DNA from: Sphaerochaeta associata
GTDB taxonomy: Bacteria > Spirochaetota > Spirochaetia > Sphaerochaetales > Sphaerochaetaceae
Length of the DNA stretch: 64,000 nt
Direction: 5' to 3'
NCBI RefSeq assembly: GCF_022869165.1
Contig: NZ_CP094929.1
Location: forward strand, 2,666,001 to 2,730,000
Positions 17,068 to 30,859 of this stretch are shown one piece after another (positions within the stretch are counted from its first letter, which is position 1; each line of letters begins with the position of its first letter). The notes under the pieces are model-generated. The model made no database searches. It was given only the letters and a program-made list of their open reading frames with translations, and was not told where the DNA came from. The translations under genes were made by a program, and so were the position numbers.

Positions 17068-18123
17068 ATGGCGAAGCAGAAAAAGACAAATCGTATACAA
17101 AAACAAGTGGGAAAGGCGAAGAAGCGGGGCAAGCGACTGCTTATACTGCTTACCGTCCTCATCGTGCTTTGGATCCTCACCCTGATTTTCGCCCCCAACG
17201 AGCAACCGTCACTTCAAAGCTCTTCCACCTACATACAAGATTTGGAACTTCCGCTCCATCAAAAGGGAGATCCGGTGGTAAGCCACCCGGGATACACCCT
17301 TCTCTATGACGAGGAGCATGAGCAGCCGCGCTGGGTGGCCTACCATCTCAGCCGCGAAGAGCTGTACGGCAGTCATGATCGGGGGGATGACTTCAGGGCC
17401 GATCCTTCCATCCTTACCGGCTCAGCAACACTGGACGATTACCGAGGCAGCGGCTATGATCGCGGCCACCTGATTCCTGCAGCCGACCTGTCCTGGTCTG
17501 AGGATGCTATGAGCGGTTCCTTTTATATGAGCAACATGAGCCCGCAGGTCGGTGATTTCAACCGGGGAATTTGGAGCAAGCTCGAAGCAACCGTACGCAA
17601 TTTCGCCGATACCGAAGGAGCCGTATACGTAGTAACCGGACCGGTGCTCACCGACGGCCCGTACAAGACCATCGGCAAGAACAAGGTATCGGTGCCCAAT
17701 GCCTACTACAAGGTGGTTCTCGACTATCAAGAACCTGAATACAAGGCCATCGGCTTCGTGCTGCCCAACGAGGGCTCCAAGAAGGACCTGCAGACATTCA
17801 CAACGAGCATAGACGAGGTTGAGGAGCTTACCGGCCTCGACTTCTTCCACCGGTTGAAGGACACAGAAGAGAATGAACTTGAGGCATCGTTCGATGTTTC
17901 TCAGTGGGACTTCTCCACCTTCAGTGCAAGCGCAAAGGACCGCGAAGCATTCCAGGCAGGAAACCTACCTGCAAAGGTGCAGGACAAGCCATCAGGAATC
18001 TACTCGTTTGCAAAAGGTACGCTGTCGACCATTCTGTACGTAGTGAAGAAAGAGAGTGTGAACATCATCGAGCTCTTCGTTCCCAAGGCTACACTCAGAG
18101 AGGCTGCACCCTTCCTCTATTGA
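17068..18123 (+). CDS. Membrane-anchored DNA/RNA non-specific endonuclease
   Basis: 351 residues. A basic N-terminus (KQKKTNRIQKQVGKAKKRGK) precedes one membrane segment (LLILLTVLIVLWILTLIF), so the rest faces outward. The nuclease domain contains the YDRGHL active-site motif of the NUC1/Serratia nuclease family, then SFYMSNMSPQVGDFNRGIW with the conserved Asn and Glu/Arg partners. Such enzymes degrade external nucleic acids for nutrients. GAAGGAGAGG precedes the start. It ends seven bases inside the convergent sulfoquinovosidase gene. Confidence 0.88.
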   Translation: MAKQKKTNRIQKQVGKAKKRGKRLLILLTVLIVLWILTLIFAPNEQPSLQSSSTYIQDLELPLHQKGDPVVSHPGYTLLYDEEHEQPRWVAYHLSREELYGSHDRGDDFRADPSILTGSATLDDYRGSGYDRGHLIPAADLSWSEDAMSGSFYMSNMSPQVGDFNRGIWSKLEATVRNFADTEGAVYVVTGPVLTDGPYKTIGKNKVSVPNAYYKVVLDYQEPEYKAIGFVLPNEGSKKDLQTFTTSIDEVEELTGLDFFHRLKDTEENELEASFDVSQWDFSTFSASAKDREAFQAGNLPAKVQDKPSGIYSFAKGTLSTILYVVKKESVNIIELFVPKATLREAAPFLY

Positions 18124-20123
18124 ATCGAGGAGAAGAGCGAGGCGAAGCTACTTGCTTTGCGGTAGAATACTGGAGGGCGTAACAGAGGAGCTTCGATGCA
18201 GTGCCTGCCCCCATGGTACTCGACCTTGGTAAAGAGGTGCACCCACTCGTCATCAGGAAGCGTTACGACAACCGAATTGGCGCCGGCTTCCAAGACAGGA
18301 GCAACCAAGAGGTCCCGCCCCAAGAGGTAGGAATCCTTTACACTCATGAACGATTCCAGTTCATAGTGCAAGAAGATCGGTCTGATAACCGGAATTCCCT
18401 GGTCTGCGTTCTCGGCAACCAGATGCATCAGATAGGGCTTGAGCTGCACATGCACATCAGTCATCCGGGCAATTGCCTCGATGGTTTCCTGATCACTGTC
18501 AAACTGCCAGTTGTCCTTGGGTCGATTTCCCTCATGAGTGCGCATCAAGGGCGAGAAGGCTGCCTGTTCGGCCCACCGAATCAAGAGCTCCTTGCTGCGC
18601 TTCATGCCGTAGAGTGTGGTGTAGCCCCCGATGTCACTATGATTGAGGCCCATGCCGCTCATCGCAAGCGACAGGGTTGCCGTGAGGACTGAAGGAAGGC
18701 CGTCGTCCTCGGACCAATCCACATTCTGATCCCCCGCCCACATCATCGGGCATGAAGCAAGGCTCTGGACACATCCGGCACGCATGAAAAAGAGGATCTC
18801 ATCACTCTTGCCGCACTCCTCTATCGCAGCCTTGTTGACCTCGGCCCAGTAGCCCGGCCACCTGTTGTGCTCGAGCATGGCGTCTTTGCCCCCTGCGAGC
18901 ACCACATCGGTAGGAAGGTACTCTCCAAAGTCGGCCATCCAACCGGACAGGCCGAAGCCAATGAGCTCGCGCTTTATCACTTCCTTATACCAGGCAACCG
19001 CTTCAGGTTTGGTGAAATCCACAATGGCCGCATCGAACTCACCGAAGTCGACCAGGTAAACCGAACCATCCACCCGCTTTCCCAGCAAGTCCAGACGCAA
19101 GGCTTCCTCATAGAGCGGGTGATCGACAAGCACATAGGGGTTGATATACCCCAACACACGCACGCCTTCCTCTCTCAAACGTACAATTTCTCGATCCAAG
19201 CCCGGGTAGAGCTGCCGGTCCCACTGCCAGTTCCACCTCAGGCGCTTGCCGAAGCTGGTGTACTTCTCCCCTTCCCAATCCTGAAGCCACAGAGCGGCAA
19301 CCTTGACAGAAGCGTTCTGCATTTTCTCAAGCTTCTCCAAACATGTCTGGGTTCCACCTTGCATTCCCAGGATAATGCCGTCGTACACCCAGGAGGGAAG
19401 GTATTGCTGTCTTCCAAGCAAACGGGAGATGTCCTGAACCACTTCCAACAGGGTGGGCTTGACCGATATCACAATACCTGCCGGGACATCCCAGAACTCA
19501 AGCTGGTGACAGCCGGGATTGGAGAAATCAAAGTCGGCATACCCATAGGTATCGGCATGCACGAAGTAACGTCGGCTTGAGACGAAGGTGGGCTGCGGGT
19601 AGAAGGTGGTGTGATAGTCCCCTCCTGCACGGTCGAGGCGGTCGGCCGTCCGGGTGATTTCAGTCTGCTTGTTTCTGCCCACACCCTGTTCCTGCGTCCA
19701 AAGGGGGTAGTTTTTCCCCCTGAGGTTGAAGTGGGAGAACTGCTCCCCGCAACCCCATACACACTCTTGTTCAGTGGCGAAGAGTCGAAGGGCCAGCCGG
19801 TTATAGGGGGCAGGGAGAGGGGAACAGCGCAGGTGCAGACGCCCGTCGCGCTCGCTCAGCTCCAGGGAGAAGGACGTTTGCCCTGCAGAGAACGTAAGCG
19901 TTGAAACTCCCCTTCCTTCGCTGTACGACTCACTGAGCAGATAGGAACCAAGGGGCAACGTAGTTATCGTCTCATCCTCGATGAAGTAGTTGCCCCGATA
20001 CATGTCCACCGTCTCTTTCCCCTGCTTCAGGGTGATGAGTGGACAGCTGTCGCTGTGTTCGAGAATCTTGAGTTGGTTGTAGAAGACGGAGAGCCTGCCG
20101 TTCTGCTTGGAAAAGCTGATCAT
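18117..20123 (-). CDS. yihQ: Sulfoquinovosidase, GH31 family
   Basis: 668 residues, the size of E. coli YihQ. It should hydrolyse alpha-sulfoquinovosides such as sulfoquinovosyl glycerol to sulfoquinovose. The catalytic nucleophile is Asp398 in WMADFGEYLP and the acid/base is Asp465 in WAGDQNVDW. The residues that bind the sulfonate in E. coli YihQ (the QQRW set Q262, Q288, R301, W304, plus Y508) appear here as Q255, Q281, R294, W297 and Y501, all at a constant offset of seven, as are the two catalytic aspartates (405, 472). There is no signal peptide, so it acts in the cytosol on imported glycosides. It is the last gene of the leftward transport operon, starting two bases after the permease stop. 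Confidence 0.93.
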   Translation of the reverse strand: MISFSKQNGRLSVFYNQLKILEHSDSCPLITLKQGKETVDMYRGNYFIEDETITTLPLGSYLLSESYSEGRGVSTLTFSAGQTSFSLELSERDGRLHLRCSPLPAPYNRLALRLFATEQECVWGCGEQFSHFNLRGKNYPLWTQEQGVGRNKQTEITRTADRLDRAGGDYHTTFYPQPTFVSSRRYFVHADTYGYADFDFSNPGCHQLEFWDVPAGIVISVKPTLLEVVQDISRLLGRQQYLPSWVYDGIILGMQGGTQTCLEKLEKMQNASVKVAALWLQDWEGEKYTSFGKRLRWNWQWDRQLYPGLDREIVRLREEGVRVLGYINPYVLVDHPLYEEALRLDLLGKRVDGSVYLVDFGEFDAAIVDFTKPEAVAWYKEVIKRELIGFGLSGWMADFGEYLPTDVVLAGGKDAMLEHNRWPGYWAEVNKAAIEECGKSDEILFFMRAGCVQSLASCPMMWAGDQNVDWSEDDGLPSVLTATLSLAMSGMGLNHSDIGGYTTLYGMKRSKELLIRWAEQAAFSPLMRTHEGNRPKDNWQFDSDQETIEAIARMTDVHVQLKPYLMHLVAENADQGIPVIRPIFLHYELESFMSVKDSYLLGRDLLVAPVLEAGANSVVVTLPDDEWVHLFTKVEYHGGRHCIEAPLLRPPVFYRKASSFASLFSSIQ

Positions 20124-20125
20124 AC

Positions 20126-20968
20126 CTACCCCTTCACCCCACCGGCGGTCAAACCACCGATGATCTTGTCATGGAGAAACACGTAGCCTACGATGCTGGG
20201 AATTATGGTGATGATCACCGCTGCATACATGCTTGCATAGTCGGTGATGAACTGGCTGGTGAAGAACTTGATGCCGAGTTGAATGGTCCTCGATTCGATC
20301 GAGGAGGTAAGCAGCATGGCCATCAGAAACTCATTCCAGCTGTAGATGAAGCAGAAGGTTGCCGCGGTGACAAGGCCTGAACGTGAGAGCGGGAGGATGA
20401 TCACCGAGAATCGCTTGAAGAAGCCGCAGCCGTCGATGACACTCGCCTCCTCCAGCTCCCGGGGAATGGACTTCATGAAGGCGGTGACCAGAAAAATCGA
20501 GACTGGAATATTCACCGCAGTATAGACAAGCACCAGTGCAAGCAAGGTGTTGTACAACCCGCTCTTGGTGATGAAGGAGAAGTAGGGAACCATGAAGGAG
20601 ATGACGGGAACCAGGACTCCGGCGGTAAATACAGTATACAGCACATCGCGGCCTCGAAAGCGTTCACGGGAAAGAATGAAGGAAGCCATGGCGGTCACGA
20701 TGCTGTTGAGAATGACGGCGCTGGCTGCAACCACCACCGAATTGAGCAAGAGCCGTGGCAGGCTCGCCATGGCAAGGGCCTTGGCATAGTTGACCCACTG
20801 TAATTTCTCAGGCCAGCCGAAGGGGTTGGTCTGCAGCTCCAAATTCGTCCTCAGCGAGCTGACCAACAACCAGAGAAGGGGCAGCAGTGCTACGGCAAGC
20901 AGGGAAACCAGAAGAATCCACTTCAGGAGGTTGGCGATGATTTGAGCCGGTGCATAATAGTGTTTCAT
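20126..20968 (-). CDS. Carbohydrate ABC transporter permease (MalG type), likely for sulfoquinovosides
   Basis: About 280 residues with six membrane helices and the ATPase-coupling EAA loop EEASVIDGCGFFKRFSVIILPLS. Three ATG codons occur in tandem; the third (MKHYYAPAQ) has the best distance to AGGAG. It belongs to the CUT1 class, which uses a shared MsmX/MalK-type ATPase; no ATPase gene is present in this cluster, so one from elsewhere is probably borrowed. Position directly before the sulfoquinovosidase gene suggests that sulfoquinovose or its glycerol glycoside is the cargo. Confidence 0.88.
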   Translation of the reverse strand: MKHYYAPAQIIANLLKWILLVSLLAVALLPLLWLLVSSLRTNLELQTNPFGWPEKLQWVNYAKALAMASLPRLLLNSVVVAASAVILNSIVTAMASFILSRERFRGRDVLYTVFTAGVLVPVISFMVPYFSFITKSGLYNTLLALVLVYTAVNIPVSIFLVTAFMKSIPRELEEASVIDGCGFFKRFSVIILPLSRSGLVTAATFCFIYSWNEFLMAMLLTSSIESRTIQLGIKFFTSQFITDYASMYAAVIITIIPSIVGYVFLHDKIIGGLTAGGVKG

Positions 20969-20977
20969 CATCATCTC

Positions 20978-21871
20978 CTATTGCGCCATCTCGCTCATCG
21001 GATCCGAAGAGCCGAAGATCTTGCGAAGGACGGTGATCACCACCGTTCCCATCAGTATCAGAAATACCCCGGCAGTACTGGCCTCGCTGTACCGCAGTGC
21101 ATCCATTTTCAGATAGAGGTCGATTCCCATGGTGGTGGTGGCATACGCCGGGCCGCCGCCGGTCATCAGGAAGGTCGATTCAAAGTGACGCATGCCATAG
21201 GCCATGGCCAGCGTCATGGTAGTGATGAGGCTGCCCCGCAGCATCGGAAGAGTGATGTTCAATTCCTGCTGGAAGGTGCTTGCCCCGTCGATCTCGGCGG
21301 CTTCGTAGAGCGAGCGGGGAATATTCATTGCCGAGGCGAGCAGGATGATCATAAAATACCCGATATAGATGACAGTCTGGAAAATAACAGCAAAGAGAGC
21401 GGTATCGGGGTTGCCCAGCCAGTTTCTCTTCTCTGCACCAAACAAGGCACCCAGTATTGCATTCAAAGGACCCTCCACATTGTATATGGCTACCCAGACC
21501 ATCGCCAAGGCGACGGTGGAGATGACGTTGGGAAGGTAGTAAATGGTTCTCAATGAGCGCCAGAAGTGAGGCTTTCGCACCAGGATCATGGCAACCAGGC
21601 AGGCCAGGGGAACTTGGATGAACCCTTGTGAAAGAGCCCATATCACATTGTTTCCCAGAGCCTTGCGAAAGGTTGGATCGCCGAGCAGCTTGGTATAGTT
21701 GGCAAGACCGTTGAATTTCATCGACCCGATTCCTCTCCAACTGGTGAAACTCGTGTAGATGGTAAAGAGGAATGGATAGATGAAAAAGAAGAAAAACAAG
21801 ATGGAGACCGGCAGCAAGAACAAAACTCTCGCCCCCCAGACCCGACTTCGCTGTGTACCGACTGCTTGCAT
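20978..21871 (-). CDS. Carbohydrate ABC transporter permease (MalF type)
   Basis: 297 residues from the ATG giving MQAVGTQ, with GGAG upstream; a longer reading would extend into the substrate-binding protein gene. Six helices are apparent and the EAA loop reads YEAAEIDGASTFQQELNITLPML. It pairs with the MalG-type permease downstream. Family CUT1. Substrate is inferred from the neighbouring sulfoquinovosidase. Confidence 0.88.
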   Translation of the reverse strand: MQAVGTQRSRVWGARVLFLLPVSILFFFFFIYPFLFTIYTSFTSWRGIGSMKFNGLANYTKLLGDPTFRKALGNNVIWALSQGFIQVPLACLVAMILVRKPHFWRSLRTIYYLPNVISTVALAMVWVAIYNVEGPLNAILGALFGAEKRNWLGNPDTALFAVIFQTVIYIGYFMIILLASAMNIPRSLYEAAEIDGASTFQQELNITLPMLRGSLITTMTLAMAYGMRHFESTFLMTGGGPAYATTTMGIDLYLKMDALRYSEASTAGVFLILMGTVVITVLRKIFGSSDPMSEMAQ

Positions 21872-21935
21872 ATCGTGCTCCTGATTAGCTGCATGAAATG
21901 CCGCCGTCTCGCGACGGCAGCACGACAGGATGTTT

Positions 21936-23201
21936 CTAGCGTTCGATCTTGCGGTCGACCAGAGCGCAGAACTCTTCTGCACTGATGCGTCCGAGGGCAA
22001 GAGCTCCGAGCTGCTGGGCAAACTCCAGCGTTACTTCTGCACCAAGGGCTGCTTCGAGGTCGAAGGCTGTGGTCTTGGCTGCGTCGGCAACATCATAGAA
22101 TTGCTTCTGCAGGGCCTTGACCGGACGATAATCGGTCTTGATGGCGAACATGGCACCACTGGTCTCGGCAATCTTGGAGATGGAGGGTGCACTGGTCAGG
22201 AACTTGAGGAAGTCGACAATTGCTGCCTCGCGCGCCTTATCCTTTGAGGAGGCTGCACAGATGTTGGCCTGCAGACGGCTGATCATGAAGTCCTTGGTGG
22301 AACCTGCGGCAGGAAGACCTGCAATCTTGATGGAGTTGAAGAACGGAGTGGCGGCAAGGTCTGCACGGCCGGCATACCAAGGCCCGTTGGAGAAGACTGC
22401 GGTGCGACCGGCGAGGAAGTGACCGCCGCTTCCGCCTGCTCCCAGTCCGACTGCATCAGTGGTGGAGTATTCGACGATCATGCGCTTGGTCAGCTTGGCT
22501 GCCTCAACGAATGCAGGATCGGTAAAGCTCTTGTCCCATACATTGGTTCCACCCAAGGAGACGGCGAAATGGCTGAACCAGATCATGGAGGTCCAAGCAT
22601 TGGTATCGCCGGTCATCTGACTGGTCGGGGTGATTCCGGCGGCCTTCAGCTTGTCAAAGGCGGAGAACATGCCCTCAATGGTGGTCGGAAGCTCGGAAAT
22701 ACCGGCTTTCTTGAAGGCATCCATGTTGTACCAGATCGGCAGGATGGCAGTCTCCATCGGCAACGATTTAAGCATCCCGTCGACGGTGGACTGCTCGATC
22801 GAGCCGGCATCGAAGCTCTGCTTCCAAGGAGTATCCATGACCTTTGCAAAATCCATGAGCAGGTTGCTTTGGTAGAAGGTGGCGGTAGTCGGATTGAACT
22901 TGATCGTGAAGATGTCAGCCGGTGCCTGACCTGCAGCAAGGCTGGTTCTCACCTTCTGCTCGTAGGCGTTGTAGTCGGGCTGTGGTTCAACGACGACCTT
23001 GATTTTGCCGGCATTCTTGGCATTGTACTCAGCCACCAAGGCTTCAACGGCGGGGGCCTTGCTGTCGTTTCCGACCCAAATGCTTGCCCAGCGCAGCTCG
23101 ATCTCTTTGGCAGGCGCATTCTCAACCTGACCCTGGGCAACAAGCGGGAAGACCAGGCAGAGCATCAGCAGAAGGGCGATTAATCTCGATTTTTTCAACA
23201 T
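21936..23201 (-). CDS. ABC transporter solute-binding protein, candidate sulfoquinovoside receptor
   Basis: 421 residues with a Sec signal peptide (KKSRLIALLLMLCLVFPLVAQG) and no lipobox cysteine. The mature part is a family 1 sugar-binding protein (ELRWASIWVGNDSKAPAVEALVAEYNAKN, a conserved DIFTIKF, and WAGRADL-like hinge segments). A CUT1 binding protein (SmoF) is known to bind sulfoquinovosyl glycerol in Agrobacterium; this protein would have the same job but need not be an orthologue. AAAGGAG precedes the start, and a stem-loop lies just upstream. Confidence 0.85.
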   Translation of the reverse strand: MLKKSRLIALLLMLCLVFPLVAQGQVENAPAKEIELRWASIWVGNDSKAPAVEALVAEYNAKNAGKIKVVVEPQPDYNAYEQKVRTSLAAGQAPADIFTIKFNPTTATFYQSNLLMDFAKVMDTPWKQSFDAGSIEQSTVDGMLKSLPMETAILPIWYNMDAFKKAGISELPTTIEGMFSAFDKLKAAGITPTSQMTGDTNAWTSMIWFSHFAVSLGGTNVWDKSFTDPAFVEAAKLTKRMIVEYSTTDAVGLGAGGSGGHFLAGRTAVFSNGPWYAGRADLAATPFFNSIKIAGLPAAGSTKDFMISRLQANICAASSKDKAREAAIVDFLKFLTSAPSISKIAETSGAMFAIKTDYRPVKALQKQFYDVADAAKTTAFDLEAALGAEVTLEFAQQLGALALGRISAEEFCALVDRKIER

Positions 23202-23222
23202 AGCAATCTCCTTTGTATCCTA

Positions 23223-23243
23223 TTTTTGCCTTACAGGCAAAAA
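23223..23243 (-). other. Stem-loop between isomerase and binding-protein genes
   Basis: TTTTTGCCT (23223-23231) and AGGCAAAAA (23235-23243) form a perfect nine-base stem with a three-base loop, symmetric on both strands. It lies in the 77-base gap before the binding-protein gene. Such stems often stabilise or partly terminate transcripts so that the binding protein is made in excess. The start codon of the downstream gene is about 20 bases further on. Confidence 0.5.
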
Positions 23244-23278
23244 GTTTGTATGGTAATGGATGAAAAAGGCATATGAAT

Positions 23279-24595
23279 CTAGCAAATCACCTTCCAACCC
23301 TTGATCTTGGCAACCAATTCCAGGGCCCGGATATAGGTGCCGTACACCACCGATGAGTGATGGGCAAGACCGTTGTCCAGAACAAGGTTCAAGACATCTT
23401 TAACCGGCCTGTCGAACACCACTTTCATGTAGGTACCCTTGAGCAGCTTCTCCATCGGAATGGCCTTTGCCTTCTGCAGGAACATCCGATATCCACCACG
23501 GGCTGAATCGATGCGAAGCACTGAAAGCTCTCCGCTTTTAAGTACAAAGTCGGCGGTCACACCCTTGCCGCCGGCAAAGTAGGTGTCCAGACTGCGATTG
23601 CACACGCCGTCCCACAGGTTGCATGGGGCAACCCCGCAATGCCAAAACAGGGCGAAATCCTGTTCGAAATCAACTTGGGAGAAATCAAAAAGGAAAGGGG
23701 TTTCTGCTCCAAGGGCCTTGTGGGCGATCATCGAAAGGGCCCCGTCGATATCCCCTTCGCAGGCGAGTATCAGACCTTCGGACTGCAACAACGACATCGC
23801 TGCACAAGGAGAGACTCCGAAGTCCCGGGCGAACTCGGGCCAACAGCGGATGGCAAGGGCGGACAGGCCGTTTGCATGGTAGAATGCATCCAGCTTTGCA
23901 GATAGTCGGGAGACCTTGTCCAATTGGTATGCAGACAGTGTTGAGACATCAAAGGTGTCGGCAAGCTGCTTTCGCCTTCGTGAAACCTCTTCATCACGTA
24001 CCTCATAGTTGTGCACTTCACTCAGTTCATAGTGATCGACCAAGGCACCCGTCTGTCCGAACAGCAGGTTGTCCTGTACCCCGACATTGAAGAATCCGTC
24101 GGCCCGGTAGCCGATGATGCCGATCTTCGATCCTTTCATCGCCTTGATCACCCGCAGGGCATCGATCCAATCCTGATCTACGGTATTCTGGATGATGACC
24201 GTGTAGTCATCGAACCCGCTCTTATAGAGGTTTGAGGCATTGAGGTTCACTCCGCACACTGAATTAAGCCGGATCTTCCCCCCGTTGTACGGCAGCTCGG
24301 GAAGTCCCCACAAAAGGACGGGAACCGCAAGCTCGCGCTTGAGCATGAGAACCAGATGGCCCAGATGGAACGTACCGGAGATGCAGATCAGCCCATCGAC
24401 GTGCTCGCCGGCGAGCTTCTTGGCTGCTGCCAGCCCATCCTCCTGGCTGATCACCAGCTCATCAATGAAGCACCACTGGACCGCTTCGACGCTCTTCAAG
24501 TCTTCGCGAATCTTGGAATAGAGCTCCCCTGCTGCACCAAAGTCATAGGTTTTTCTGGCAAGGCACACGACTGCTATCTTGACGGGATGTTTCAC
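23279..24595 (-). CDS. L-fucose/arabinose isomerase-family protein, proposed sulfoquinovose isomerase
   Basis: 438 residues from a GTG preceded by AAGGAG. The fold family is evident from LLWGLPELPYNGGKIRLNSVCGVNL, RCWPEFARDFGVSPCAAMSLL, CEGDIDGALSMIAHKALG (metal-ligand Glu/Asp region) and the C-terminal HHSSVVYG. Family members interconvert aldoses and ketoses with a divalent metal. In this gene set the needed step is sulfoquinovose to 6-deoxy-6-sulfofructose; isomerases called SqvD do this in Firmicutes, and I believe they are of this family, but that recall should be checked. A real fucose or arabinose isomerase is less likely because no matching kinase or aldolase is present. It is the first gene of the leftward operon. 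Confidence 0.75.
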   Translation of the reverse strand: MKHPVKIAVVCLARKTYDFGAAGELYSKIREDLKSVEAVQWCFIDELVISQEDGLAAAKKLAGEHVDGLICISGTFHLGHLVLMLKRELAVPVLLWGLPELPYNGGKIRLNSVCGVNLNASNLYKSGFDDYTVIIQNTVDQDWIDALRVIKAMKGSKIGIIGYRADGFFNVGVQDNLLFGQTGALVDHYELSEVHNYEVRDEEVSRRRKQLADTFDVSTLSAYQLDKVSRLSAKLDAFYHANGLSALAIRCWPEFARDFGVSPCAAMSLLQSEGLILACEGDIDGALSMIAHKALGAETPFLFDFSQVDFEQDFALFWHCGVAPCNLWDGVCNRSLDTYFAGGKGVTADFVLKSGELSVLRIDSARGGYRMFLQKAKAIPMEKLLKGTYMKVVFDRPVKDVLNLVLDNGLAHHSSVVYGTYIRALELVAKIKGWKVIC

Positions 24596-24645
24596 GCTCT
24601 GCTCCTTATGGATGGAAGGGAGAAGGCCGAGCTTCACCCTATATA

Positions 24646-24690
24646 GTTACTTTCCATAAGTAAGTAAATACCACAATACTGTGTTCGTCA
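24646..24690 (-). promoter_or_regulatory. Promoter and palindromic operator of the leftward sulfoquinovose operon
   Basis: On the minus strand TTGACG (24685-24690) and TTTACT (24662-24667) are spaced by 17 bases. The palindrome TTACTT-N5-AAGTAA occupies 24646-24662, so it begins on the last base of the -10. The same palindrome with the same placement occurs before the rightward operon (25962-25978). Binding by the ROK regulator encoded between them would block both promoters. Confidence 0.7.
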
Positions 24691-24708
24691 ATGAAAACTT
24701 TCGTTTTT

Positions 24709-25872
24709 TTAGCGGAAGTACTCCTGCAACACCAAGTCGCTAGCTCCCTTTTGGGCGAGCAACGGATCGTAGGCGGTGGCGAAAATCCTCGGTTTCTCAC
24801 AGCAGAAGGCATCGGGTTCGCTCATCAGGTGCTCGACCTGCTCACAGAGGGCCTGCGCGACTGTCTCACAACATCCTACGAAGAGGAATGATTTTGGTGC
24901 CAGCAGGCGGGTGAGAACCTTCATCGCAATTACCAGATACCCTGCAGCCCGTTCAATGGTTCGCTTTGCTGCCGCATCGCCTTCTTGCAGCTTCTCATCG
25001 AGCCCCTCGAACAGGGCCAACCGCAGTTCCACCGAATTCGGGTCGAGGTCCTGCAGATACGCCTGCAGACAACCACGACTGCCGCAGCTGCAGCGCGGGC
25101 CGTCGCTGTCGATGGGAATGTGGCCGCACTCGATCGTCTGGTTTTGGCTGTTCACATAGATCTCATCGTCATGGACAAAAGCCCCGTTCACCCCGGTTCT
25201 CAGCAGGAAGGTAAACATGCTGCCGCTATGATCGAATCCCCCGTAGCGGTACTCGCTGAAGGCAAGCGCGCTGCAGTTGTTGTGAATCATCACCGCAAGG
25301 CCGAGCCGGCTCGACAGCTCGTCAACCAGTGCAATATCCTTCATGCCCTCGATACGGGGATAGTAGCGCACCCGCTGTTGGGCAAGGTCCACCTGGCCGG
25401 GGGCGGCAACCCCAACCCCGATGACCTTCTTTTTGGGGATGGACAGTTCGCCGAGTATCCGGTTGATCTCACCTACAATGAGGTCGATGACCTGGCTTGC
25501 CCCAACCGACTCGGCAAGCGGATGCATGACCGAATAGATACGCTCTCCTTGGAAGTCGAAGACACCAAGGGATAGGAAGGCGGTCCAGAATTCGAGGCCC
25601 ACCGTGTAGCGCGCATGCTTGGAAACCACATAGAGCACAGGTCGTCTGCCCTTCTTGGCCACCGTCTCCTCCCCGTTGCTTTGAGCGGGAACTATGAGGC
25701 CCTCCTCTTCAAGGGAGGAGAATATGCGAAAAATAGTAGGGGCTTTCAACCCGGTTTTTTGGACGACTTCCGATTGGCTGGTTCCCAGATTCTTGGAAGC
25801 GTGAATCAGCGAGAGCACCATATTCTGATTATGGACCCGCAAATCTGATGCCCTCAGTGGATTTCCTTGCAT
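24709..25872 (-). CDS. ROK-family (XylR/NagC-type) transcriptional repressor
   Basis: 387 residues. An N-terminal winged helix (NMVLSLIHASKNLGTSQSEVVQKTGLKAPTIFRI) precedes a ROK sugar-binding domain with VGVAAPGQVD, the ligand loop ECGHIPIDSDG and the zinc motif CSCGSRGCLQAY. ROK repressors of this type release DNA when a sugar binds. Encoded between the two arms of the sulfoquinovose gene set, it is the obvious regulator, with sulfoquinovose or an intermediate as inducer. Its operators are probably the two TTACTT-N5-AAGTAA sites. Its gene is divergent from the transketolase operon. Confidence 0.88.
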   Translation of the reverse strand: MQGNPLRASDLRVHNQNMVLSLIHASKNLGTSQSEVVQKTGLKAPTIFRIFSSLEEEGLIVPAQSNGEETVAKKGRRPVLYVVSKHARYTVGLEFWTAFLSLGVFDFQGERIYSVMHPLAESVGASQVIDLIVGEINRILGELSIPKKKVIGVGVAAPGQVDLAQQRVRYYPRIEGMKDIALVDELSSRLGLAVMIHNNCSALAFSEYRYGGFDHSGSMFTFLLRTGVNGAFVHDDEIYVNSQNQTIECGHIPIDSDGPRCSCGSRGCLQAYLQDLDPNSVELRLALFEGLDEKLQEGDAAAKRTIERAAGYLVIAMKVLTRLLAPKSFLFVGCCETVAQALCEQVEHLMSEPDAFCCEKPRIFATAYDPLLAQKGASDLVLQEYFR

Positions 25873-25933
25873 TGCACCCTCCCTTGTGGGACCAGTCTAA
25901 TCCCATCGATGAAAAAAATCCACAAGAAGTGAC

Positions 25934-25978
25934 TTTACAAGCTGGAAGGAATGGAATATATTTACTTTCACTAAGTAA
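25934..25978 (+). promoter_or_regulatory. Promoter and palindromic operator of the rightward sulfo-TK operon
   Basis: TTTACA (25934-25939) and TATATT (25957-25962) are spaced by 17 bases. The palindrome TTACTT-N5-AAGTAA spans 25962-25978, starting on the last -10 base exactly as in the leftward promoter. The two sites agree in TTACTTTC and TAAGTAA, differing only in the two central bases between these blocks. Confidence 0.72.
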
Positions 25979-25997
25979 CTAAAAGAGAGGTATCTTC

Positions 25998-26819
25998 ATG
26001 CTCACCTCGCAGGAACTGCAGCAACTCTCGGATTTTGCCAAGGAAATCCGCAAAAAAACCCTGTATGCCATTGGAAATCTCGGCGTCGGACACATCGGTG
26101 GCTCCCTCTCGATCGCCGACTTGTTGGCCCTGCTCTACGGCAAGGTGATGCGTATCGATCCCGACAATCCACAATGGGAGCAACGGGACTTGCTCGTATT
26201 GTCCAAGGGGCATGCAGGACCCGCCTTGTACGCAACCCTGGCGCTCAAGGGCTATTTCCCCTTATCCGAGCTGGACACCCTCAATGTGGGAGGAACCAAC
26301 CTGCCCAGTCACTGCGACCGGACCAAGACGCCGGGCATCGACATGACCACCGGCTCTCTCGGCCAAGGCCTGAGTGCTGCCTGCGGCCTTGCGTATGCAC
26401 GCAGAGTCGACGGCAATACGTGCCATGTCTATGCCATCATCGGTGACGGCGAATCACAGGAAGGACAGAACTGGGAAGCGGCGATGTTTGCTTCCCACTA
26501 CAAGCTCGACCACCTTATTACCTTTACCGACAACAACAAGATGCAGATCGACGGATTGACCGAGCAGATTATGGGACTGGGCGACCTTGAGGCGAAGTGG
26601 AACAGTTTCGGCTGGTTCACCCAGCGGGTCGACGGGCATGATCTGAAAGCGATGGATGAAGCCATCGAGCGAGCCAAGGCACAATCGGGCAAACCCTCGA
26701 TGATCATATTGGACACCATCAAGGGCAAAGGCGCTTCGTTCTGCGAGGGAAAGGTGACCAACCACAATATGAACTTCGATCTGCAAACCGCCAATGCGGC
26801 GATTGCCGAGCTGGGATAA
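25998..26819 (+). CDS. sqwG: Transketolase N-terminal subunit, proposed sulfofructose transketolase
   Basis: 273 residues, the thiamine-diphosphate-binding half of a split transketolase. It has IGGSLSIADLLALLYG, SKGHAGPALY, TGSLGQGLSAACGLAYA and the diphosphate motif GDGESQEGQNWEAAMFA ending in DNNKMQIDG. The C-terminal half follows at once. In the sulfo-TK pathway (SqwGH of a Clostridium) such an enzyme moves two-carbon units from sulfofructose and then from sulfoerythrulose to glyceraldehyde 3-phosphate, giving xylulose 5-phosphate, sulfoerythrose and sulfoacetaldehyde. A housekeeping transketolase is an alternative, but the partner genes argue against it. AGAGAGG precedes the ATG. Confidence 0.85.
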   Translation: MLTSQELQQLSDFAKEIRKKTLYAIGNLGVGHIGGSLSIADLLALLYGKVMRIDPDNPQWEQRDLLVLSKGHAGPALYATLALKGYFPLSELDTLNVGGTNLPSHCDRTKTPGIDMTTGSLGQGLSAACGLAYARRVDGNTCHVYAIIGDGESQEGQNWEAAMFASHYKLDHLITFTDNNKMQIDGLTEQIMGLGDLEAKWNSFGWFTQRVDGHDLKAMDEAIERAKAQSGKPSMIILDTIKGKGASFCEGKVTNHNMNFDLQTANAAIAELG

Positions 26820-26829
26820 GGAGGAAATG

Positions 26830-27774
26830 ATGGAAACCAAGGAGATGCGTGCAGTCTACTGCGACACCCTTATCGAGCTTGCACAATCGGATGAGAGGAT
26901 CATGGTGGTGGAAGCGGACCTCATGCGTGCAACCGGCACCATGAAATTCAAGGAAGCCTACCCCGAGCGTGCGGTGGACGTCGGGGTGGCCGAGGCAAAC
27001 CTGGTGGGGGTGAGCTCAGGGCTCAGCGCCGGAGGGAAGATTCCCTTTGCCGCAACCTTTGGGTGCTTTGCATCACGCAGGGCGTTTGACCAGTTCTTCC
27101 TCTCGGCAAACTATGCCAAATTGAATGTCAAACTGGTGGGAACAGACCCCGGCATCAGTGCAGCATTCAACGGGGGAACGCACATGCCTTTCGAAGACAT
27201 CGGTCTGATGCGCATGATACCGGGCCTGACCATCGTCGAGCCGTCCGACCCCGTCAGCCTCAAGGCACTGACCAAAGCAGCGGCACAGATTGAAGGATGC
27301 GTGTACATGCGCCTGCACCGAAAGGCAGTCGCTGCGCTGTACGAAGAGGGAGAATCATTCACCCTGGGCAAAGGCAAAGTGCTTGCCGACGGAAGCGACG
27401 TCACCATCATAGCCCTGGGGGCCATCCTGGTTCCCGAGGCCCTCAAGGCACGACAGTTGCTCACGCAGCAAGGGTATGAGGCTGCAGTAATCGACATGCA
27501 TACCGTCAAACCCTTGGATGAGGAGCTCATCCTCTCCTATGCCAGGAAAACAGGGTGCATTGTGACGGCTGAGAACCACCAAACGGCCGGAGGATTGGGA
27601 AGTGCAGTTGCAAACTTCCTTTCTCAAACCCATCCCACCCCGATGGCGATGGTGGGAATCCACGATGAATTCGGTCAGGTAGGCACACAAGCCTGGCTTG
27701 CTCAGCACTACCGTCTCACAGCAGAAGAAATTTCACGCAAGGCTCTTGCACTGATCAAGGGCAGGAAGGAGTGA
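26830..27774 (+). CDS. sqwH: Transketolase C-terminal subunit, proposed sulfofructose transketolase
   Basis: 314 residues, the pyrimidine-binding and C-terminal domains of the split transketolase. The catalytic glutamate is in VGVAEANLVG, and the substrate channel shows FASRRAFDQFF and GGTHMPFEDIGLMR. AAGGAGGAA precedes tandem ATGs; the second (METKEMRA) has the better spacing. It lies ten bases after the N-terminal subunit gene and four bases before the RpiB-like gene. It is expected to form a heterotetramer with its partner. Confidence 0.85.
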   Translation: METKEMRAVYCDTLIELAQSDERIMVVEADLMRATGTMKFKEAYPERAVDVGVAEANLVGVSSGLSAGGKIPFAATFGCFASRRAFDQFFLSANYAKLNVKLVGTDPGISAAFNGGTHMPFEDIGLMRMIPGLTIVEPSDPVSLKALTKAAAQIEGCVYMRLHRKAVAALYEEGESFTLGKGKVLADGSDVTIIALGAILVPEALKARQLLTQQGYEAAVIDMHTVKPLDEELILSYARKTGCIVTAENHQTAGGLGSAVANFLSQTHPTPMAMVGIHDEFGQVGTQAWLAQHYRLTAEEISRKALALIKGRKE

Positions 27775-27777
27775 CGT

Positions 27778-28248
27778 ATGACCATAGCAATTGCAAGCGA
27801 CCTCAGCGGCTTTCCCCTCAAGAAGGAGTTGGTCGAGCATCTGAAAGAGAGCGGTTACACCGTCCTTGATTTCGGCATCGAAAACGAGAACGCTCCCCAG
27901 CCCTACTTCATCCAGGCCCCCAAGGTAGCCAAGGCGATCCAGGAGGGAAAAGCGGAGAAAGGGATTTTGGTCTGCGGGACCGGACAAGGAATGGCCATTG
28001 TGGCAAACAAGCACAAAGGCATCTACGCTTGTGTGGTGGATGACATTTTCAGTGCAGAGCGATCGAAGATCGTCAATAATGCCAATGTCATCACGCTCGG
28101 CGGTTGGATCACAGCCCCCTTTGCGGGGAAGCAGATCGTCGATGCATGGCTTGCCATGAGTTTTACCCAGAAGATGGAGTTCAAGAAAGACTTCCTGACC
28201 AACGCCTTCGCCCAGGTCCAGGCGATCGAGGAGGAGAACCTCAAATGA
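27778..28248 (+). CDS. sqwI: RpiB/LacAB-family isomerase, proposed 4-deoxy-4-sulfoerythrose isomerase
   Basis: 156 residues with the RpiB fold: catalytic Cys66 in LVCGTGQGMAIVANK aligns exactly with Cys66 of E. coli RpiB. The residues that handle the phosphate ester and ring in RpiB are changed: His10 of the CDH motif becomes Leu9, His99 becomes Val99, and Arg133, His134 and Arg137 of GGRHQQR become Met133, Glu134 and Lys137. Loss of phosphate ligands with retention of the catalytic cysteine fits a sulfonate sugar substrate. In the sulfo-TK route SqwI converts sulfoerythrose to sulfoerythrulose. The stop codon overlaps the next start as ATGA. Confidence 0.82.
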   Translation: MTIAIASDLSGFPLKKELVEHLKESGYTVLDFGIENENAPQPYFIQAPKVAKAIQEGKAEKGILVCGTGQGMAIVANKHKGIYACVVDDIFSAERSKIVNNANVITLGGWITAPFAGKQIVDAWLAMSFTQKMEFKKDFLTNAFAQVQAIEEENLK

Positions 28249-29414
28249 TTGAAAGCCTGCAGAGTACTGTTCACATCCTCAGCGTATCCGATCTGGACGC
28301 CGACACACTATCACAGATACTCACCTTTTCAGCGAACAAGGCAGGCAGGCCCACCGTCTGTGCAGTCATAGACAACGCACCCATTCCCGCCAAGGATGTA
28401 CTGCTCAAGGATCTGGAGCGCCATGCAATCGTACACCGGTTCGACCAAGTGCAACCGAATCCCCGGACGGTGGATATCATGCGCATGTATGAAGACCCCG
28501 AATTTGCATCATGCGATGTGGTACTGGGTATCGGGGGAGGCAGCACTCTCGACTCCGCAAAGGCTCTGGCAATGCTCGCTTCCAATGGGGGGAGTCTTGC
28601 CGAGTACCTTGGGAACAAGCCGCTGCGTACGATCACCGAACGTGCAAAAACTCTCGTTCTGATCCCGACCACCGCCGGTACGGGATCGGAGGTGACCAAG
28701 GTCGGCGTCTACACCGATCCCCTTGGAAGGAAGTACACCCTCGGCTCGCCCTTGATGAGCGCCCGCACGGCAGTCTTGGCTTCCTCGCTGCTGGAGGGCG
28801 TTCCCCCATCTCTCTGTGCTGCTACAGGCTTGGATGCCTTGGACCATGCATTGGAATCAATTTGGAACAAGAATAGTACCCCGTTGACCAAAACAATAGC
28901 CCGTAATGCTGCTATTGAGATACTTGAAACACTGCCAAAGCTGTATCAGGCCATCAAAAAGCAGAGTCCCGACAAGCAATCTCTCATCCGATCGATGCTC
29001 GCCGCATCCACGAAAGCAGGAATTGCCTTCAACCTTACCGGAACAGCCGCCGGGCATGCCATCTCTTTCATTCTCAGCGAGGAGTGGCATGTTCCCCACG
29101 GCCTGGCATGCGCCTTCACGTTGCTGGAAGTCTTCGATTGGGCGGTACAGGACGAGTCGAATCGAAAAGAACTTGCCCAAATAGGCAAGCATTTCCATCC
29201 GACTTTCGGAGATGACCAAGCCCTGGAAGCTCTGAGAGAAGACATTTCCTCCCTGATGCAAAGACTCGCAATACCAACCAAATTTGCGGACATCAAGGTG
29301 GATCTCACCGACCTATCGGTCTTTGATCGCTGCCTTGACGATCCGAAGCTGCTCAACCAGCTTCCGCCTCTGGGCAAGAAAGATCTCCATCGCATCATCG
29401 AGGCCAAGCGATGA
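28245..29414 (+). CDS. sqwF: Iron-containing alcohol dehydrogenase, proposed sulfoacetaldehyde reductase
   Basis: 389 residues from the ATG overlapping the upstream TGA; GAGGAGGAG lies upstream. The NAD(P)-binding GIGGGSTLDSAKA and the iron-site region TGLDALDHALES with a later GHAISFIL and HVPHGLACA show a group III, iron-dependent alcohol dehydrogenase; PTTAGTGSEVT is also present. SqwF-type enzymes reduce sulfoacetaldehyde to isethionate, regenerating NAD+ in fermenting cells. Other aldehydes are possible substrates; the assignment rests on operon context, including the exporter next door. Confidence 0.82.
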   Translation: MIESLQSTVHILSVSDLDADTLSQILTFSANKAGRPTVCAVIDNAPIPAKDVLLKDLERHAIVHRFDQVQPNPRTVDIMRMYEDPEFASCDVVLGIGGGSTLDSAKALAMLASNGGSLAEYLGNKPLRTITERAKTLVLIPTTAGTGSEVTKVGVYTDPLGRKYTLGSPLMSARTAVLASSLLEGVPPSLCAATGLDALDHALESIWNKNSTPLTKTIARNAAIEILETLPKLYQAIKKQSPDKQSLIRSMLAASTKAGIAFNLTGTAAGHAISFILSEEWHVPHGLACAFTLLEVFDWAVQDESNRKELAQIGKHFHPTFGDDQALEALREDISSLMQRLAIPTKFADIKVDLTDLSVFDRCLDDPKLLNQLPPLGKKDLHRIIEAKR

Positions 29415-30154
29415 GTGCCATCCTGGCAAGCGGAGTGGTCGTGTTGATCACCCACGCACTTGAGGCTGTAACCGGCTTCGGGTGCGCCGTCCTTGCCATG
29501 CCCTTTGTCAGCGCCCTGCTCGGGGTGAAAACGGCTGTGAAGGTTATTACCATCCTGGCATGGCTGTTGGCACTGTACCTTGCAGTACGCAATTACCGCA
29601 GGATCGACTTCAAGCAATATGCAATCATTACCGGATGCATGCTCGCAGGTCTTCCAGTGGGCATGTACCTCTTTCGCAGCCAGGATACATCCGTCCTTTC
29701 AATCATCCTGGCCGTCTTTATTGTGCTTGTATCGGTAAGCCAGCTGTACCGACTCCTGCATAAAGGAGAACAAGCCGAACTTCCTCAGGGAGGAAGGGCG
29801 CTTTTCTACTACCTGTTGCTTGTGCTGGGGGGCATCGTTCATGGCATGTTCTCCTCCGGCGGCCCCCTGGTGGTGTTGTACGCCACCCGCGCCCTCCCGG
29901 ACAAGGGCTCGTTTCGAGCTACGCTCTGCCTGCTGTGGACGACGCTGAACACCATCATCATCGCAACCTACCTGGCTGAAGGTTCTCTTGATCAGGGCAC
30001 GGTCAACACGACCGCCCTGCTCATACCCTTTGTTGCGGCGGGCGTCATCATTGGAGAACGGGTGCACGACAAGGTTGATGAGAGAAAGTTCTCCCTCATT
30101 GTGTTTTCCATGCTATTGTTGACCGGAATCTTCATGTTGGCATTTACGAGGTAA
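29411..30154 (+). CDS. TauE/SafE family sulfonate exporter, proposed isethionate export
   Basis: 247 residues, about seven to eight membrane helices. The repeated family motif appears as EAVTGFGCAVLAMPFV in the first half and VHGMFSSGGPLVVLYA in the second. TauE/SafE proteins export organosulfonates in several sulfur pathways, including sulfoacetate and isethionate. The ATG overlaps the dehydrogenase stop (ATGA), so export is tied to formation of the end product. No other role fits the operon as well. Confidence 0.87.
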   Translation: MSAILASGVVVLITHALEAVTGFGCAVLAMPFVSALLGVKTAVKVITILAWLLALYLAVRNYRRIDFKQYAIITGCMLAGLPVGMYLFRSQDTSVLSIILAVFIVLVSVSQLYRLLHKGEQAELPQGGRALFYYLLLVLGGIVHGMFSSGGPLVVLYATRALPDKGSFRATLCLLWTTLNTIIIATYLAEGSLDQGTVNTTALLIPFVAAGVIIGERVHDKVDERKFSLIVFSMLLLTGIFMLAFTR

Positions 30155-30157
30155 ACC

Positions 30158-30859
30158 ATGCACCCATCTTTCTATCGAGTTCCCGACGCACTGATCACTG
30201 AGAATCCCCATCGTATGATTCACCGCATCGACTCATCCCGTTTCAACCAATACGGGACGTTGCTGCCTGATCTGAAGGTAACAGACCTCATTGAAACAGC
30301 TCAAAAACTCACGGCAATTCCACAGGAGGGCAACGTCTATGTTGCCTCACTACCAGAATTGGAAGCCCTCGCCGAGACTGCAAGCCTGCAGTCCTACTTC
30401 AATGGACAGAGTATCCAGGTTGGATACTGCAACGGACGCAATATCTCGATCAACGGGGCCGAGTATCACAAAAGTCCCGAGCTGTTCATCGCTGTAACCG
30501 ACTGTCTTCAATTCCTGACCCCGTTCAACCAGCTCAAGGATTTCAGAGCAGTGCATACAAATGCTGCAGAACTCTTCTACTTTCCCAAGGGCTCGGTGGC
30601 TCTCATCAAGGAGAAGGTGCTGCACCTTGCTCCGTTGTGTGTGCATCAAGAGGGATTCAAATCCATCATCGTCCTGCCAAAAGGAACCAATGAGCCGCTT
30701 GACACAGGTATTGTCCACAACCCGGAGAACGATGAGGACAAGCTGTTGTTCAAGCAGAACAAGTGGATGCTCGCCCATCCCGACCGCATCCAGCTTACCA
30801 GCCAAGGGGTGACGGTAGGACTTGAGGGAGAGAATCTCAGTATCAGGCCGCTGAACTAA
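30158..30859 (+). CDS. DUF4867 family protein, unknown role in the sulfo-TK operon
   Basis: 233 residues. It has no signal peptide or membrane segment. The pattern is cupin-like: a beta-rich core with GAEYHKSPELFIAV (His and Glu as possible metal ligands), FYFPKGSVALIKEKVLHLAPLC and a further histidine in CVHQEGF. I recognise it as DUF4867, a family I recall only from sugar gene sets of Gram-positive bacteria, with no function known to me. Being the last gene of the operon, three bases after the exporter, it may be a mutarotase or isomerase for sulfo-sugars, or a regulator; this is speculation. Confidence 0.7.
   Translation: MHPSFYRVPDALITENPHRMIHRIDSSRFNQYGTLLPDLKVTDLIETAQKLTAIPQEGNVYVASLPELEALAETASLQSYFNGQSIQVGYCNGRNISINGAEYHKSPELFIAVTDCLQFLTPFNQLKDFRAVHTNAAELFYFPKGSVALIKEKVLHLAPLCVHQEGFKSIIVLPKGTNEPLDTGIVHNPENDEDKLLFKQNKWMLAHPDRIQLTSQGVTVGLEGENLSIRPLN

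Follow-up and report, generated by a model that had tools for sequence, protein, structure and literature searches.

Two operons of Sphaerochaeta associata for the breakdown of sulfoquinovose, a sulfosugar of plants, are read in opposite directions, and the promoters of both carry the palindrome TTACTT-N5-AAGTAA. The initial annotation took these copies for a shared repressor site. We analyzed the window, i.e., the whole stretch of 64,000 nucleotides, together with related genomes, asking whether the palindromes are operators of the ROK-family protein encoded at the locus and which signal would release it.

Gene Content of the Locus

A complete isethionate-forming sulfo-transketolase (sulfo-TK) sulfoquinovose cluster was encoded in the window, with the genes in order on either side of the ROK gene. 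All members known from the reviews of this cluster type (PMC12890257, PMC9594981) were found: SqvD, SqwGH, SqwI, SqwF, and SqwE as well as YihQ and SqvB. Their enzyme activities are predicted, and the single-family matches of SqvD and SqwF lie below the NCBIfam equivalog cut-offs. The sulfo-TK pathway has been reported to be transcribed in rumen Sphaerochaetaceae (PMC13219744).

The left operon, on the minus strand, encodes SqvD, a predicted FucI-like sulfoquinovose isomerase (23279–24595; NF048012, E 1e-59, below the curated cut-off), an ABC sugar transporter recognized by family matches (sugar-binding protein, SBP, 21936–23201; permease A, 20978–21871; permease B, 20126–20974), and a YihQ-type GH31 sulfoquinovosidase (18117–20123; NF007746, E 1e-272, above the cut-off). 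The start of sqvD was placed at GTG 24595, behind a good ribosome-binding site (AAGGAG); GTG 24637, which opens the longest reading frame, is probably too early. The right operon, on the plus strand, encodes a split transketolase, with SqwG (25998–26819) as the N-terminal and SqwH (26803–27774) as the C-terminal subunit, the RpiB-like sulfoerythrose isomerase SqwI (27778–28248), the iron-type alcohol dehydrogenase SqwF (sulfoacetaldehyde reductase, 28248–29414), and the TauE-type exporter SqwE (29411–30154), all assigned by family matches, followed by SqvB (DUF4867, 30158–30859; PF16161, E 1e-65). The ROK gene (24709–25872, minus strand, 387 aa) was, as initially annotated, located between both palindromes, and it is transcribed leftward like the left operon.

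Palindromes and Promoters

The left putative operator occupies positions 24647–24663 (TTACTTTCCATAAGTAA) over the -10/start region of the sqvD–SBP–permease–yihQ operon, and the right one occupies positions 25962–25978 (TTACTTTCACTAAGTAA) over the same region of the sqwGHIFE–sqvB operon; neither is assigned to a strand, and they are 1315 bp apart. The position first given for the right copy was exact, whereas that of the left copy (24646–24662) was one base off. The left promoter (24663–24691, minus strand), as read from the sequence, consists of a -35 box TTGACG (24686–24691), a 17-bp spacer, and a -10 box TTTACT (24663–24668); the right promoter (25934–25962, plus strand) consists of TTTACA (25934–25939), a 17-bp spacer, and TATATT (25957–25962). 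At both promoters the first base of the palindrome is indeed the last one of the -10 box, and this register is conserved across the genus.

The exact palindrome occurred twice in the whole genome (3.55 Mb), both times in the window; the earlier observation that the window holds no third copy thus extends to the entire genome for exact matches, and the many unrelated copies that would have spoken against a specific operator were not found in the genome-wide search. A reversed control pattern gave no copies in the same 3.55 Mb, and 100 dinucleotide-shuffled versions of the window contained no exact match to the palindrome. With up to two mismatches allowed, the genome showed no enrichment (105 matches per strand vs. 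218 for the control), so only near-perfect sites are informative and weak matches carry no information.

Five one-mismatch matches were inspected as candidates for a third genomic site and gave no sign of further targets: three lie inside long open frames, one falls in a MarR-type gene's promoter, within a repeat belonging to that gene, and one lies ahead of an integrase-like gene within a separate longer palindrome. The latter (L070, 5957; about 1699456 on G000:C1) is TACATACTTACTCTATATAAGTAAGTATGTA and is unrelated to the ROK site.

Conservation and Rearrangement in the Genus

Orthologues of the ROK protein, 68–92% identical, were found in 15 other genomes of the genus, and the palindrome preceded sqwG and/or sqvD in all 16 ROK-bearing genomes. 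Its half-sites were far better conserved than their surroundings: 99% in the sqwG promoters (n = 15) vs. 75% in the 20 bp downstream and 65% in the promoter spacer, and 100% in the sqvD-type promoters (n = 16) vs. 57% and 70%, respectively. The promoter boxes were also retained, left-type promoters having TTGACG in 15 of 16 and TTTACT in 15 of 16 cases and right-type promoters having TTTACA or TTGACA and TATATT or TATAGT in 15 of 15. The register of -35 box, -10 box, and palindrome was constant in the genus except for one -35 and one -10 box on the sqvD side.

Among ten genomes of the genus lacking the ROK gene, eight had no exact copy and two had a single copy with unrelated central bases, which is a weak independent test, as G109 and G110 lost ROK, sqvD, and sqwG–E together and G099 and G103 are incomplete. 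Since genomes of the genus without ROK have also lost much of the cluster or are incompletely assembled, only a pair of genomes from another genus (g21, see below) separates ROK from the operon. The loci L108 and L109 (G110 and G109, respectively) belong to nearly complete genomes that keep yihQ, the permeases, and sqvB and have lost ROK, sqvD, SBP, and sqwG–E; they are decayed sulfo-TK loci.

Natural rearrangements show which genes the sites accompany. In G093 the ROK gene is located about 6 kb from sqwG, the palindrome still precedes sqwG, and a one-mismatch copy lies ahead of the SBP gene. G121 has three sites, before sqwG, sqvD, and SBP; in G025 a site precedes SBP, far from ROK; and in G112 a duplicated sqvD promoter, together with a sqvD remnant, carries a third exact copy ahead of a second yihQ. 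The sites thus stay with sqwG, sqvD, or SBP when genes are rearranged; it is the regulated genes that they mark, and not ROK.

A conserved block upstream of the ROK gene (25912–25933, minus strand, CTTCTTGTGGATTTTTT) is probably part of the gene's own promoter. In G093 this block was relocated along with the ROK gene and the operator stayed at sqwG, which suggests the block to be part of the ROK promoter and sqwG to be the gene controlled from the right-hand operator. Autoregulation of ROK through the right-hand site, which we considered, is weakened by the same rearrangement.

Two of these loci have further features. At about 5.1–11.2 kb of L053 (G093), an insertion of ~6 kb separates sqwG from ROK, sqvD no longer occupies its usual position, and ROK is preceded by a distantly homologous isomerase gene (26% identity), apparently a replacement for the sulfoquinovose isomerase. 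In G112 (L061, 5641–7934), the duplicated sqvD promoter and operator are followed by the truncated sqvD remnant and then by the second yihQ (39% identical), which was apparently recruited into the regulon.

Distribution of the Sites in the Phylum

An alignment scan for the ROK protein gave 80 loci, all from Spirochaetota save one Clostridiales-labelled MAG and one unnamed bacterium. Sites were counted if they had no more than one mismatch and lay in the 250 bp ahead of a cluster gene; 48 of 54 ROK-linked sulfo-TK loci had one vs. 4 of 26 loci without sulfo-TK, the latter judged on the available DNA around each ROK locus. The corresponding Fisher p value (1.4e-10) overstates the evidence, as related loci are not independent; the ROK tree has many gains or losses of sulfo-TK linkage. 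Control patterns share the same relatedness and are therefore a better yardstick: in stricter windows excluding the ROK gene, the true pattern was found in 47 of 54 loci, whereas 89 composition-matched control palindromes were found on average in 0.6 loci. The highest control value, 9 loci, belonged to ATTTTC-N5-GAAAAT, discussed below. The result was the same with one representative per group (1–3 promoters each) and the genus of the window excluded (18 of 26 promoters). A TTGACA-like -35 box started exactly 28 bp before the palindrome, the same register as in the window, in 43 of 87 non-redundant promoters.

A near-perfect site was missing from six of the 54 sulfo-TK loci, three of which (L154–L156) carry the variant ATTTTC-N5-GAAAAT. 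Four genomes with ROK, from the genera g21 and g3, have perfect copies of this variant ahead of the sqvD–sqwG operon, with the same 6-5-6 geometry and length of 17 bp as TTACTT-N5-AAGTAA. The variant resembles the AT-rich ROK operators of the NagC/Mlc type. Two further g21 genomes, G126 and G135, have the operon and no ROK gene, and neither the ATTTTC nor the TTACTT motif was present in 19–20 kb of their DNA.

Distant ROK homologues from Rectinema and relatives (L184, L185, L193, L194, L203–L206, L208, and L209) form a clade with neither sulfo-TK genes nor the site in the available locus DNA. The Clostridiales-labelled MAG (Firm_16, L142) carries a full Sphaerochaeta-like cluster with a ROK protein 63% identical to that of the window, owing to horizontal transfer or mis-binning.

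Features of the ROK Protein

The ROK domain was present (PF00480, E 2e-24, 87 bits vs. a cut-off of 22.9), preceded by an N-terminal winged helix-turn-helix with helices at residues 8–25, 33–40, and 44–56 of the predicted model; MarR/IclR helix-turn-helix matches at residues 18–63 were sub-threshold. The best structural match of the model (mean pLDDT 92), aligned over its length, was the operator-bound structure 5F7Q. Scores for the NagC (NF047937, 101 bits vs. a cut-off of 650) and Mlc (NF049930, 73.5 bits vs. 530) equivalogs were far below the cut-offs, so the protein, as judged from these profiles, is a ROK regulator related to NagC and Mlc and a member of neither family.

The kinase residues of the protein were lost, and its sensor motifs were retained. 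EFW stands in place of the ATP motif DxGxT, and an invariant N198–N199 stands where kinases have N-D, with Asn199 at the position of the catalytic Asp; these losses would abolish kinase activity. In 33 homologues, the sugar motif ExGH (E248, G250, H251) was invariant, as were C261, G267, and C268 of the zinc motif CxCGxxGC (CSCGSRGC, 261–268), and C263 and G264 of this motif were kept in at least 90%. All homologues likewise have Arg225, whose counterpart in the alignment to a ROK glucokinase is a small residue; a role of Arg225 in sulfonate binding is speculation.

Proposed Regulation

The local ROK protein very probably represses both operons by blocking RNA polymerase and is released by a sulfosugar; we propose this because the sites are unique, placed on promoters, conserved, and associated with the ROK gene. 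Phylogenetic footprinting, composition-matched controls, rearrangements, and the presence or absence of ROK all support, at the level of sequence, the shared repressor site suggested initially. We infer physical binding, dimeric contact, repression over activation, and the inducer. A ROK dimer would bind TTACTT-N5-AAGTAA with one winged helix per half-site, the recognized site extending on both sides as tttac...gTAAa. It would cover roughly -7 to +10 of the sqvD–SBP–permease–yihQ and sqwGHIFE–sqvB promoters and keep RNA polymerase from loading; such a cover favors repression via polymerase block. A sulfosugar entering the inactivated sugar-kinase pocket would release the repressor and switch on uptake, hydrolysis, and the sulfo-TK pathway together. 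By pathway logic, sulfoquinovose or sulfofructose (6-sulfofructose, made from sulfoquinovose) is the most likely signal, proposed by analogy with XylR (PMC9104551), ROK regulators of Thermotoga (PMC3750489), and CsqR (PMC10991401).

It is possible, at rather low probability, that the ROK protein binds the sites and mainly activates, or represses through a DNA loop joining the sites 1315 bp apart. The two sites do lie one gene apart, and E. coli NagC, a ROK protein, both loops DNA and activates at some promoters. However, both sites lie across the -10/start region, where protein binding keeps polymerase out, and constant spacing, which we considered as a sign of looping, was not found: the distance between sites was 1315, 1439, 1350, and 1367 bp across genomes and over 7 kb in G093. 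A fixed loop is therefore not required.

It is less likely still that the palindromes are operators of another regulator, encoded, e.g., elsewhere in the genome. Co-occurrence alone cannot name the binder; yet ROK is the only regulator among the annotated cluster genes (18117–30859), the sites accompany ROK-linked clusters throughout the phylum, and the pair of g21 genomes that have the sulfo-TK operon and no ROK gene lack the site present in their relatives with ROK.

The palindromes, being inverted repeats near the transcription start, might also be leader hairpins acting at the RNA level; this is very improbable, since the expected start lies inside the palindrome, so that the transcript would hold only a part of it, and what is conserved is the fixed spacing from the -35 box on DNA. 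Coincidence of two similar palindromes on AT-rich -10 regions is refuted by the conservation and the controls to the point of being negligible.

With somewhat less assurance than for repression by the ROK protein at the two promoters, we consider it likely that this ROK clade serves across Spirochaetota as a dedicated sensor of sulfosugars, its pocket directly recognizing sulfoquinovose or sulfofructose, perhaps via Arg225, which takes the place of a small residue next to the sugar site in ROK kinases. If so, the protein would have no predecessor in the literature searched, either as a sulfonate-sensing ROK protein or as a regulator assigned to the sulfo-TK pathway. With operator and regulator defined, responses to sulfoquinovose could be read from genomes and response genes predicted, e.g., the second yihQ of G112; the pair also suggests a simple sulfosugar reporter.

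Comparison with Known Systems

The same gene set, isethionate-forming and with SqwF and SqwE, is known from the sulfo-TK clusters of Clostridium sp. MSTE9 and Sphaerochaetaceae (PMC12890257, PMC9594981, PMC13219744). The words regulator, repressor, and ROK are absent from the main text of these papers, and no ROK regulator of sulfoquinovose genes was found in the open literature, subscription papers lying outside the search; control of the sulfo-TK pathway has apparently not been described earlier. For sulfoquinovose clusters, a local repressor is known in E. coli: CsqR (YihW), which has sulfoquinovose as an effector (PMC10991401); unlike the protein studied here, it belongs to the DeoR family and governs the sulfo-EMP rather than the sulfo-TK pathway.

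Among ROK proteins, Lmo0178 of Listeria (5F7Q) was the best match of the model (TM 0.85, E 1e-28) and likewise combines a helix-turn-helix with a degenerate sugar-kinase domain, the sequence match spanning both the helix-turn-helix and the sensor domain; however, it is about 21% identical to the ROK protein of the window and controls alpha-glucan genes (PMC9104551). The seven ROK regulators of Thermotoga are paralogues specialized on sugar pathways and encoded in the loci that they regulate, although they belong to a different phylum and no sulfosugar is among the effectors named (PMC3750489). XylR of Bacillus and Paenibacillus is a local ROK repressor beside a sugar operon with a palindromic operator (GTTT-N7-AAAC; PMC9104551), and its repression is lifted by the pathway sugar; it differs in the sugar and the half-site, and in the window two operons flank the regulator gene. 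A ROK repressor that controls a neighboring sugar operon from a palindromic operator is thus a known, ordinary kind of switch, and it is the substrate class that is new.
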